This document shows, piece by piece, positions 12,735 through 20,877 of a stretch of 20,931 nucleotides of DNA (the first letter of the stretch is position 1; each line of letters opens with the position of its first letter). The DNA is from a virus. The notes below the pieces were generated by a model. The model was not told the origin of the DNA. It saw only the letters and a list, made by a program, of their open reading frames with translations, and did no database searches. The position numbers and the translations under genes were made by a program. The DNA lies in the IMG/VR virus record IMGVR_UViG_3300019124_000026, positions 1 to 20,931 of that record. One strand, 5' to 3'.

Positions 12735-12945
12735 GCGCCTGCTCCTCAGGATCAGAGCTGCGGGCTTCGCGGATACATAACCTTGAGACGTTGAGGCTAG
12801 CGGAGGCGTCGGGGGGATCTCTCTGGAGTGGCTCGCCCTCGCCGCTTGAGGCGGCGGGTCGACCAGGTGAGAGCTTGATCAGCTGCCTATCTGCGCTTCG
12901 CTTGATGATCGGCAGAAGGAGTGATGCCTTCTGTCAACCATCTGG

Positions 12946-13147
12946 TCAATGGGGCGTCGCGGTGCGATTCACTTTCATGATCACACCTGGATCGGACGGG
13001 AGCTTGTTGAGCAACGCCTTGACGTGCAAGGCTTTCCCGCTGCCGTTGGTGTCGCCTCGGACTGTGACCGAGATGACATTCTTTTTGGGCTCCGATCGAT
13101 GGATGAGCGGTTGACAGCATGAGGCGACTAAACCCGCTGTCTCTCAT
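12946..13147 (-). pseudogene. P-loop microprotein with a frameshift
   Basis: Read from ATG 13147 the first frame gives MRDSGFSRLMLSTAHPSIGA and then a non-biological continuation. The frame one base further on reads KNVISVTVRGDTNGSGKALH, VKALLNKLPSDPGVI and stops at 12948-12946. The two join if one A is removed from the run of five at 13082-13086, giving a 66-aa product. GDTNGSGKA resembles a Walker A loop (G-x4-GSGK). From memory, short proteins beginning 'nViSvtvtG..GsGKs' often stand near Acb2-type genes in proteobacterial phages, and such a gene lies 200 bases away. The second frame has no start codon of its own. It is either a decayed gene, a sequencing error in the homopolymer, or a frameshift-expressed product. 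Confidence 0.5.
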
Positions 13148-13195
13148 CGTGCGACGTTTCGTGGCCCGCGGGTGAGGCGGGCAATCCCGTGGGTG

Positions 13196-13333
13196 CTACT
13201 CAGCCTCCCAGAAATGCATTCGTTCGGATCGGGAGGGCCAATGCTTGGCGCCGTATTCGACGCTGAACGCGTAGCCCCAGTTGTAAGCGTTGATCAGCGG
13301 ACTATCGGTGGGGTGCTGCCAGGGACCGCCCAT
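13196..13333 (-). CDS. Small phage ORF, 45 aa (ribosome modulation factor-like pattern)
   Basis: ATG 13333 has GAGGAG 7 nt upstream and starts 19 bases after the stop of the Acb2-like gene. The product reads MGGPWQHPTDSPLINAYNWG, then YAFSVEYGAKHWPSRSERMH, and ends FWEAE. The 'AYxxGYxx' start and aromatic end recall the RMF-like small proteins carried by many proteobacterial phages, but this is a weak likeness. The strong ribosome site and lack of frame breaks support a real gene. Confidence 0.5.
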   Translation of the reverse strand: MGGPWQHPTDSPLINAYNWGYAFSVEYGAKHWPSRSERMHFWEAE

Positions 13334-13352: not shown

Positions 13353-13582
13353 CTAAGCGGTGATACCCTTCACGGCCCACATGACGGCCTCTTCCATCTT
13401 GGTCTTCGCGATGGACATCTCCCGCGACGGGCCGCATTCGTCGCAATACGAGGGAAGGCTGCACCCGTGTCCTTGAACCACTTCATAGCGGCCTTCTCCT
13501 CGTCGGAGAGGACGCGGTACTCGTGGCGCATGACGTTGTTCACGGTCCGAGCATCGGACGTGCTGTCGACTGTTTCTGACAT
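13353..13582 (-). pseudogene. Acb2/Tad1-type anti-CBASS/anti-Thoeris protein with a frameshift
   Basis: From ATG 13582 (AGGA 6 nt upstream) the frame reads MSETVDSTSDARTVNNVMRH, EYRVLSDEEKAAMKWFKDTG and AAF. The matching C-terminal half continues in the -1 frame as CDECGPSREMSIAKTKMEEA and VMWAVKGITA, ending at TAG 13355-13353. Restoring one base near the C-run at 13452-13454 gives a 76-aa protein. The pattern 'YR.Ls..E...M...kd.g.....l......sre.siAktk.EEAVMWAvk.iTa' is, as I recall it, that of the Acb2/Tad1 hairpin domain. Known members bind cyclic nucleotides (Acb2) or gcADPR (Tad1) and so switch off CBASS or Thoeris immunity. As read, the gene is broken; a sequence error is possible. Confidence 0.66.
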
Positions 13583-13969
13583 TGTGGGTCCTGGGATGGT
13601 GCCTGGGCTCTCGGCCGCCCAGCGGGCTCAACTTATGGCTCTTGCGAGCATGGCGATTTGAATGCCTGAAACTGGGCCGTGTGTCACCACCCCAGAAAAA
13701 GCATTTCAGAATCATGGTCATAGCTGGCCAAGGCTGGTCGCGAGACGAAAACTTTCGCAACTAAATGACCTTAGCCTGCATGGAGCGATGGTTCGCCGCT
13801 ATGCTGAAAATGCAATTCTTTTCGGGGGGAGAAACTGGAACTCACGGGAAAAAGACCCCTCACCGCACAAAGCGGGAGGGGCTGAAGGCAGAAGGCCGTG
13901 GGGGCAATGAGGCCTTCGCCACGACAATGCCCTCCCACGGGGTTTGTTGCTAACCCGTTTGGAGGTGTC
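13583..13969. other. Intergenic region; boundary between phage small genes and cargo
   Basis: About 390 bases without a gene I can support; open frames on the plus strand here are short, have no ribosome site and give unlikely proteins. It holds the minus-strand terminator at 13849-13881 and must contain the promoter for the Acb2-like gene transcribed to the left. No convincing -35/-10 pair was recognised. Confidence 0.5.
13849..13881 (-). terminator. Rho-independent terminator of the secreted-protein gene pair
   Basis: On the minus strand GAGGGG-type and GCGG-type stems (13876-13881 with 13856-13861, 13872-13875 with 13863-13866, one bulged base) close a 5-nt loop. They are followed by TC and five T residues (13853-13849). 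It lies about 90 nt past the stop at 13970 and would end that transcript before the phage genes. Confidence 0.8.
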
Positions 13970-14293
13970 CTAGAAGCCGGAGATAACCTCCCGCAACGTC
14001 CAGAGGCAGGAGATCTCGCCTTCCGGCCGAAGGCAAGCAAGCCCGTCCCATGTGCTGTCCGCTCTGAAGACCGTCGTCCCCGGTTTGAATATCGCACATT
14101 CGCCTGCGAGCATGGTTGCCATCAGGATCTTGTCTCGCGCCGCTTTGTCACCGGACATTATGATCTCGTGCACCTTCTCGAAGGTGGCTTTCGACCTACA
14201 CCCCGGGAAGGTCGCCTTGACCTGATCAGCGAAGGCCGCACCAGGTACGCTTAGGCCGGTCGCCACAAGCGCTATGAGTAATATGGCTCTCAT
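13970..14293 (-). CDS. Small secreted Cys-rich protein of unknown function
   Basis: 107 aa from ATG 14293, which has GAGG 5 nt upstream (a GTG at 14299 is less well placed). A clear Sec signal peptide, MRAILLIALVATGLSVPGAA then FA, ends near residue 22. The mature part has four cysteines (FPGCRSK, AGECAIFKPG, GLACLRP, ISCLWT), so two disulfides are likely in the periplasm. The pattern 'pGC.sk.tfekvheiimsgDk' followed by 'GeC..f..Gt.Vf' occurs in small proteins of Proteobacteria that I cannot name. It is the second gene of a pair with 14304-14594, which ends 10 nt upstream, and is followed by a terminator. Confidence 0.7.
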   Translation of the reverse strand: MRAILLIALVATGLSVPGAAFADQVKATFPGCRSKATFEKVHEIIMSGDKAARDKILMATMLAGECAIFKPGTTVFRADSTWDGLACLRPEGEISCLWTLREVISGF

Positions 14294-14303
14294 GGGCACC
14301 TCG

Positions 14304-18649: not shown

Positions 18650-20017
18650 ATGAAGATATTTCCTCCCGCTATCGACATTGAAGACGACGAAGGTTTCTCG
18701 CAAAAGGATATTTTCGGCAGAGCCTCTTTGGGAGAGGGACTGACGCATTTTGTAGGAACGGTCTCGGACCCGCTGGTGATTGCTCTCGACGCACAGTGGG
18801 GGAGTGGCAAAACGACCTTCCTGAAGATGTGGGCGGGCGAGCTCCGAAAGACGGGCTTCCCTGTCGTTTATTTCGACGCGTTTGAACATGACTATTTCGA
18901 CGACGCTTTCCTAGCGATTGCCGGCGAGGTCATAGCACTGGCCGAAGCAAAACGGAAAGATGACACACCAGAGGGGCAGAAGTTCTTCAGCAAGGCGAAG
19001 GGCGTTGCTAAGGTTTTAGCTGGTTCTGGTCTGCGACTGGCTGTTAGGGGCGCGACACTCGGAGCGGTGGACACGGTCGACCTCGGCGACACTGTCGACA
19101 AGTTGATTGAAGCGACGGGCTCTGAAGCTGAGAAGCTTCTAGATAAGCACGTTGGTGATTTGTTGACACGACAGAAGGAGCAAAAGGCTGCGATTACGCA
19201 GTTTAGGGAGGCGCTGTCCGATCTTCCATCGCTTCTTGCTTCGTCGGGCAGCGCGTCCGAAGACGATGTCGAGGCGAAGCCACTGATCTTCATCATAGAT
19301 GAACTCGACCGGTGCCGCCCCGTGTTCGCACTCCAGGTTTTGGAACGTATCAAGCACTTTTTCTCCGTCGAGAACGTACACTTCGTGCTTGGCGTCCACC
19401 TAGGGCAACTCCGCAACTCAGTTGTCAGCGCGTATGGCAGAAACATTGATGCGAGGCTGTATCTTGAGAAATTCATACATTTAACTGTTCCGCTGGTGGA
19501 CGCTCCTCAAGACCAGCGGAACCTAACTGCTGGTCGTTACGCCGAGCATCTCGCAAGAACTCTTGACCTTCGCTCGAGGACCGCTAGCGAGGTAGTTTCG
19601 GAGATCGTTTCAGTAGCAAACCGTCAAAACCTGAGCCTCAGAACTGTTGAGAGGATCATGACGACTGTTGCTCTAAGCCTCGCATTCGCAGGTAATCTCA
19701 TACAACCCCCCATACTCATCGCCGGTCTCTGCATTCTTAAGGTCACACACCCAGATCTCTTCGTGAAAGCGAAGCTGGGGACAATCAAGCTGGACGAGGT
19801 TCGTGAAGCATTGACCTTAGATTGGCCAGCGGATGAATCCGACCAATGGCACCAATACATCGTGCTCGGCTTTTGGAAGTACTGCCTAGGGGAAGAAATG
19901 CCCGAGGAAGAGCTAAGACAATTCCGATCAGCAATTGGGGGGTCTTTTCTGTCCAGGGACCGTATTGTGCCAATCATTGCAAACGGGATAATTGACAGAT
20001 TGATGCCGCGCACATAG
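18650..20017 (+). CDS. KAP-family P-loop NTPase (PifA-like group), candidate phage-exclusion protein
   Basis: 455 aa, intact. Walker A is DAQWGSGKTTFLKMW with Lys54 and Thr55; Walker B is LIFIIDELDRCRP, with Asp217, Glu218 and Asp220. The KAP-typical stretch after Walker A, VVYFDAFEHDYFDDAFLAIA, is present, and VLERIKHFFSVENVHFVLGV and SLRTVERIM follow Walker B as in the family (PF07693). The insert at about residues 118-145 is weakly hydrophobic; no sure membrane helix is seen. Bacterial KAP NTPases include PifA of plasmid F, which excludes phage T7. Sited alone in prophage cargo, this gene probably blocks other phages; this is inference. It ends 3 bases from the stop of the gene that runs towards it. 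Confidence 0.88.
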   Translation: MKIFPPAIDIEDDEGFSQKDIFGRASLGEGLTHFVGTVSDPLVIALDAQWGSGKTTFLKMWAGELRKTGFPVVYFDAFEHDYFDDAFLAIAGEVIALAEAKRKDDTPEGQKFFSKAKGVAKVLAGSGLRLAVRGATLGAVDTVDLGDTVDKLIEATGSEAEKLLDKHVGDLLTRQKEQKAAITQFREALSDLPSLLASSGSASEDDVEAKPLIFIIDELDRCRPVFALQVLERIKHFFSVENVHFVLGVHLGQLRNSVVSAYGRNIDARLYLEKFIHLTVPLVDAPQDQRNLTAGRYAEHLARTLDLRSRTASEVVSEIVSVANRQNLSLRTVERIMTTVALSLAFAGNLIQPPILIAGLCILKVTHPDLFVKAKLGTIKLDEVREALTLDWPADESDQWHQYIVLGFWKYCLGEEMPEEELRQFRSAIGGSFLSRDRIVPIIANGIIDRLMPRT

Positions 20018-20020
20018 GCG

Positions 20021-20815
20021 TCAGCGCACCGGCACCCTCGCCTCGTGCAGCTGCTCAGCGAGGTATGAGAGTCCGGCCGGAAGATACCGGTCCAGGGTCG
20101 TCCGGCTCAGGACCTTCTCAGGCAAAGCCTGCCAGGGCAGCACGACAGGCTTCGTCGGGATCGTGAGGCCCTTGTGCCCCTGCCGGATCCGGGCATGCAT
20201 CTGGGCCGTCAGATCAGCCCAAGCCTGAGCCTTAGCGGCTTCACGCATGGCGTTAAGTCCGAGCTCGTCCGCTTGAGCCTGGCGCCAACGTCCGGCCTCG
20301 ATGATGACCCGCTTGCGCTCGCGAGAGATCGGCTCCCAGGTCGGGCGCATCTTCTCCCACTCCTCGACCATCATGCGCTCCGCAATCGCCTTCGCTTTGA
20401 CGGTCCGCTCCCTCAGGAGCGCCGCGATCGAGAATCCGCCGGCCTTGCACATGGACCAGAGCAGGACGGCATCGCAGGCCATCGGCTCATGAGCCGCGTA
20501 TTTGAGCGGCCATGCCAGCGCCTCGTCGGACATGCTGATCTCCTCGGCCGTCGGGCGCCTGAAGCCCGCGGCATAGGCATCCCGGGCTGACTTGATCGCA
20601 TCCTCGTCCAACAGGTCCGAGAATTCCTTCAGGGCAGCGGGCCAGGCGTTGGCATAAGCCCTAGGCCCTACCCTGCTCGACATGGCAAGCAACACGTCAA
20701 AGGCCTGTATGAGCCGGTGGGCGACATGCTCGGGCGTCCAGTAGGACGGCACCTCGTAGGGCGGCACATACCCATCGGGCGAAGGGCTCAGCTCAGAATC
20801 GGAACGATCAGGCAT
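20021..20815 (-). CDS. Phage protein, DUF6362-like, 264 aa
   Basis: ATG 20815 has GAGG 6 nt upstream; an alternative start 33 bases earlier would run into the operator repeats. After a polar start (MPDRSDSELSPSPDGYVPPY) comes VPSYWTPEHVAHRLIQAFDV, then LWSMCKAGGFSIAALLRERT and VKAKAIAERMMVEEWEKMRP. The order 'WTPe.Va.rl.eA......p....YanaWPa' and a late helix-turn-helix-like 'rs..a.lL.er.t....ai' is, from memory, that of DUF6362 in rhizobial phages, possibly a sigma- or terminase-like DNA-binding protein. The C-terminal 80 residues add a basic, Trp/Pro-containing region. It is transcribed from the repeat-bearing region 20829-20877. Confidence 0.58.
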   Translation of the reverse strand: MPDRSDSELSPSPDGYVPPYEVPSYWTPEHVAHRLIQAFDVLLAMSSRVGPRAYANAWPAALKEFSDLLDEDAIKSARDAYAAGFRRPTAEEISMSDEALAWPLKYAAHEPMACDAVLLWSMCKAGGFSIAALLRERTVKAKAIAERMMVEEWEKMRPTWEPISRERKRVIIEAGRWRQAQADELGLNAMREAAKAQAWADLTAQMHARIRQGHKGLTIPTKPVVLPWQALPEKVLSRTTLDRYLPAGLSYLAEQLHEARVPVR

Positions 20816-20828
20816 GGGCCACCTCAAT

Positions 20829-20877
20829 TTCGTCCAACTTTTTTGCACTTATCGTGTTGTGTGGTTCGTCCAACTTT
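20829..20877. promoter_or_regulatory. Two 13-bp direct repeats between divergent genes (operator-like)
   Basis: TTCGTCCAACTTT occurs at 20829-20841 and at 20865-20877, 36 bases apart. The second copy lies in the spacer of a plausible plus-strand promoter, TTGTGT (20857-20862) - 17 nt - TATACC (20880-20885), which would serve the gene starting at 20910. The first copy lies just before the ribosome site of the minus-strand gene at 20815. A repressor bound to both could control both directions. Confidence 0.55.

Follow-up and report, generated by a model that had tools for sequence, protein, structure and literature searches.

The window, by which we mean the whole 20,931-nucleotide stretch of viral DNA that was analysed (IMG/VR record IMGVR_UViG_3300019124_000026), has its late genes, those for terminase, portal, protease, major head protein, tail proteins and tape measure, in an intact minus-strand operon. 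Upstream of this operon lies a variable slot that holds an interrupted acb2-type gene. The nearest relative of the window is the viral contig L092, with a terminase of 82% identity, and the nearest relative of its accessory end is L125, with 67% identity over 452 aa for the KAP gene and 55% for the gene at 20021–20848. The features discussed below are the following.

13353–13582, minus strand: interrupted acb2-type gene for a 76-aa Acb2/Tad1-hairpin protein across two frames, one base short (PF24729, intact relatives, length)
13454–13582, minus strand: N-terminal half, residues 1–43, in the frame from the ATG at 13582 (third-position changes relative to relatives)
13353–13451, minus strand: C-terminal half, residues about 45–76 and stop, in the neighbouring frame (PF24729 match by itself, third-position bias)
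About 13449–13458, minus strand: frame break, within predicted helix 2 (frame comparison and AlphaFold2 helix limits of the L003 homologue)
13370–13453, minus strand: out-of-frame tail of about 27 aa in place of the second half (ORF translation, without Pfam match)
13626–13725, minus strand: conserved non-coding segment on the upstream side of the gene, possible promoter, operator or leader of the cargo slot (identity to L125 and L092)
13196–13333, minus strand: 45-aa ORF immediately downstream of the acb2-type gene, without known relatives (relative searches)
12767–13169, no strand assigned: conserved stretch downstream of the gene, probably non-coding, the other slot border (78% identity to L125:3225–3625)
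18650–20017, plus strand: intact KAP-family P-loop NTPase gene in the same accessory region, candidate anti-phage defence PDC-S20 (Pfam PF07693, E = 6.8e-37; PADLOC PDC-S20, E = 2.2e-87)

The acb2-type gene is split between two frames

Read on the minus strand from 13582 to 13353, the acb2-type gene has a length of 230 nt compared to the 231 nt expected for 76 codons and a stop. The first frame, from the ATG at 13582, encodes MSETVDSTSDARTVNNVMRHEYRVLSDEEKAAMKWFKDTGAAF and continues with unrelated residues up to a stop at 13370, while the neighbouring frame encodes SYCDECGPSREMSIAKTKMEEAVMWAVKGITA and reaches its stop at 13353. These lengths bear out the proposal in an earlier note that two halves of one protein lie in adjacent frames with one base missing, and the positions that it gave for the gene (13353–13582) and the break (about 13449–13458) are correct. 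The joined 76-aa product, for which an HMM check had been suggested, scores 64.1 bits (E = 1.3e-17) against Pfam PF24729 (Acb2_Tad1_hairpin) over profile positions 2–57 of 58, the curated cut-off being 27 bits. The second-frame part by itself scores about 46.9–48 bits, and a Pfam search with the first-frame product as written gave no match.

GC3 peaks in the frame that each half uses (0.81 for the N-terminal and 0.84 for the C-terminal half). Relative to L003, the closest intact homologue, the three codon positions show 4, 5, and 28 changes in the N-terminal half and 4, 3, and 13 in the C-terminal half, each counted in its own frame. Because relatives are 56–80% identical over both halves in one unbroken frame and because GC3 peaks in the own frame of each half, chance similarity is, on this comparative evidence, excluded for the split gene. 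The pattern of changes also shows that the protein was under selection until recently; because the third-position bias tracks each half in its own frame, the break is either recent or a base-calling error absent from the virus. No second lesion was found in either half. With 43 correct residues followed by about 27 wrong ones, the allele as written would be unable to yield a working sponge. Because the frame break leaves no ORF able to make an Acb2 protein, we count the window copy among the Acb2-type genes, but as a broken allele and not as a working Acb2.

Relatives carry the gene in a single frame

A scan of IMG/VR gave 103 relatives, 80 of which were kept (56–80% identity), and a single uninterrupted frame runs across the match in all 80. 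One-piece matches were also present in nine genome contigs (eight full-length and one short fragment) and four phage records, and PF24729 matches, without internal stop, in 21 of 397 genomes of the Hyphomicrobiales, the order of L086. The same frame break in relatives would have counted against the original reading; every relative examined has the gene in a single frame, and the break was seen in none of about 90 (at least 80 viral and eight cellular, each with one open frame). Because the relatives are intact, the break appears to be particular to this record, as far as seen. The joined product of the window retains 19 of the 19 residues that are invariant across 32 aligned relatives.

The intact relatives, from environmental viral contigs as well as from several genomes of alphaproteobacteria, form a well-conserved clade; a search for near-identical phage records found none, and a plasmid search gave no match. 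Their gene neighbourhoods are diverse, with thymidylate synthase and integrase, DNA polymerase, and recT regions among them, and no gene next to acb2 in the relatives is shared with the window. All four copies in public phage records are annotated as hypothetical. The intact homologue in Sinorhizobium phage Aussie (AUSSIE_37; L119:7992–8228), annotated in this way, lies between the genes for the head-to-tail adaptor and the stopper, which is an unusual position for a counter-defence gene.

The joined product is an Acb2-type hairpin protein

A search of the PDB with a profile of the clade ranked Acb2 homolog 43 (9PTQ), T4 Vs.4 (7UQ2), two Acb2 chains (8IXZ, 8H2J; p26), and a Tad1 in this order as the first five hits; the matches are individually weak (best E = 0.00096), yet the top nine all belong to the Acb2/Tad1 family. 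An AlphaFold2 model of the L003 homologue (mean pLDDT 82; 95–99 in the two long helices) consists of one short and two long helices (residues 14–20, 30–53, and 57–78) without any strand, in agreement with Acb2, whose fold has a short helix and two long ones that run antiparallel. With this model, Foldseek returned T4 Vs.4 (7UQ2) and Acb2 (8H2X) first, at a probability of 0.99–1.00 but an E-value of about 0.1, and Tad1 next.

At 76 aa, the joined product is also of Acb2 size and type, i.e. hairpin-only, roughly 70–95 aa, and without a beta domain. Only 21 residues precede the hairpin match, and the N-terminal beta-sheet domain of Tad1 is absent. Because there is no beta domain, the protein is Acb2-type (hairpin only) and not Tad1; the earlier label Acb2/Tad1-like is right about the PF24729 hairpin but should be restricted to the Acb2 type. 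Because the protein is Acb2-type and not Tad1, CBASS is the target expected by homology, whereas the alternative role against Thoeris, which had been proposed alongside it, is not supported.

Tyr22 of the window product, which is invariant in the 32 relatives, aligns with the Acb2 tyrosine at chain position 10–11, and Lys37 aligns with the Acb2 lysine at chain position 25–26. In PaMx33 Acb2, Y11 and K26 contact the ligand. For T4 Acb2, the substitution Y8A reportedly disrupts the binding of cyclic dinucleotides (PMC12657218). The putative sponge function of the clade rests on homology, at 23–29% identity to solved Acb2 proteins, and a hexamer with binding of cyclic di- and trinucleotides is likewise putative for the intact homologue, by analogy. 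The break at residues 43–45 falls inside predicted helix 2 (homologue residues 30–53) and helix 3 is predicted to be lost; therefore, no hairpin is expected to form from the product as written.

Acb2 of the Pseudomonas phages PaMx33 and PaP2 (8H2J, 8H2X, 8IXZ) resembles the window protein in its hairpin domain, its short size, the similar predicted fold of the intact homologue, and the motif 'YR.LS.EE....K..G..F' with Tyr and Lys aligned, but shares only about 23% identity with it, and the window copy is broken; moreover, the N-terminal segment 'DSTSD.RTVNNVMRH' is typical of the clade of the window, unlike PaMx33/PaP2 Acb2. T4 Vs.4 (Acb2; 7UQ2) shares a profile match in the C-terminal helix and, by E-value, ranks first among the fold matches of the intact homologue, but identity is 27–29%. 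Its gene context also differs from that of the window. Tad1 (7UAV, 8SMD) has the hairpin domain PF24729 at its C-terminus, but its chains are about 123–138 residues long and carry an N-terminal beta-sheet domain (PMC12043709) that is missing in the window protein.

The gene lies in a cargo slot

The slot is bordered by two conserved stretches. On the upstream side, about 100 bases (13626–13725) are 75% identical to L125:4710–4808, and about 60 of them (13634–13692) are 75% identical to L092:6282–6340; elsewhere in IMG/VR, this leader pattern occurs only in the L092 and L125 contigs. No Rfam match and no sigma-70-like site were found in 13626–13725. On the other side, the stretch of about 400 bases at 12767–13169 has frame-changing indels relative to L125 in all frames. 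Its position is upstream of the operon, on the terminase side, and it is possibly a packaging site or leader. We also considered a second broken gene at 12946–13143 ('KKNVISVTVRGD...') and rejected it: it has no relatives, and because the conserved L125 region differs by indels in all frames, this region is probably non-coding. Rfam and tRNA searches found none. Between the borders, the window has the broken gene and the 45-aa ORF, and L125 and L092 have other small ORFs. A search for a close relative with an intact gene at this site led, through terminase or KAP, to these two as the nearest, and acb2 is absent from their slot. The acb2-type gene behaves as exchangeable cargo.

Origin of the break

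The most likely explanation of the break is that an Acb2-type sponge was recently lost by natural means, and a base-calling error is nearly as likely. Specifically, we consider it somewhat better than an even chance that the gene is a cargo gene for a phage sponge of the Acb2 family whose function was recently lost via one missing base at codons 43–45. An intact homologue would fold as the Acb2 helical hairpin and assemble as a hexamer able to take up the cyclic di- and trinucleotides of CBASS. In the allele as written, helix 2 would be cut short and helix 3 would be missing altogether, so that its product could not bind. Loss of the sponge may be neutral, in a host without CBASS, or may be favoured by sponge-triggered defences such as Panoptes.

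Against a natural loss, the missing base is known from one assembled record. A sequencing or assembly error, with the phage encoding an intact Acb2-type sponge, is a substantial possibility, though one that we rate below even: the invariant residues are all present, the halves lack a second lesion, and the gene is unbroken in all of about 90 relatives. However, the earlier note placed the break at a C-run, and the run that is present (local letters TTC CCT) is only three C long and not a classic site of homopolymer errors; the window's other genes with homologues show no frame break across 13.7 kb of conserved single-frame matches, the lone exception being an ORF on the strand opposite the head genes; and real loss is known for accessory counter-defence genes. 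An error-ridden assembly is not supported, given these 13.7 kb. Recoding by ribosomal −1 frameshifting or transcript slippage would restore the full protein, and the halves are indeed adjacent and both well preserved; we regard it as very improbable and reject a conserved recoding site, and with it the frameshift control suggested earlier, because the break is found in no relative examined and a standard −1 slippery heptamer (X XXY YYZ) is missing at the site. It is also unlikely that the clade comprises structural or regulatory hairpin proteins instead of nucleotide sponges. The head-tail position of the Aussie homologue and the low identity to characterised Acb2 would fit such a role, but the neighbourhoods of the relatives vary widely and have no gene in common with the window, as for cargo, and Acb2 and Tad1 are the best profile and fold matches.

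Natural loss of acb2 is already known in other phages, namely PaMx41, Bas35, G2540, and probably T2, and the Panoptes defence selects for it. The acb2 gene of PaMx41 has a natural premature stop (PMC10419184, PMC12657218), and the gene is restored by a no-stop mutation of codon 37 (PMC10419184). Like this allele, the window copy would be a natural loss-of-function sponge allele in a phage, but it has a frame break instead of a stop codon, and the PaMx41 allele has been tested experimentally. Acb2 sequesters CBASS signals (PMC12043709, PMC10419184) and triggers the Panoptes defence; of 15 T4 escapers that overcame Panoptes, 14 had mutations in acb2, with frameshifting indels among them, and T2 has a probable binding-site mutation in acb2 (PMC12657218). 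Panoptes-resistant T4-like phages have natural defects in acb1 or acb2, those of Bas35 and G2540 being in acb2 (PMC12657230). A real break would be a further case of natural acb2 loss, from a phage background unlike those studied, and would fit the dilemma proposed for phages between evasion of CBASS and activation of Panoptes. That the break is both real and adaptive, the sponge having been dropped to escape a Panoptes-like sponge-sensing defence in a phage that belongs to neither the T4-like nor the Pseudomonas groups, is a long shot; if the loss were adaptive, the trade-off between CBASS and Panoptes would act beyond those groups. The intact relatives offer a clade in which nucleotide binding can be tested.

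Other observations in the window

The description of the source as a prophage is plausible, although no integrase was present among the genes scanned in the 20.9-kb fragment. An orphan 109-aa ORF on the minus strand (13970–14299) appears to begin with a signal peptide; searches of IMG/VR, Pfam, and PHROGs found no relatives of it. The KAP gene and the gene at 20021–20848 are both common to the window and L125. In L092, the matching accessory region contains, as judged by eye, a BrnT/BrnA-like toxin-antitoxin pair on the minus strand (L092:7724–8546).
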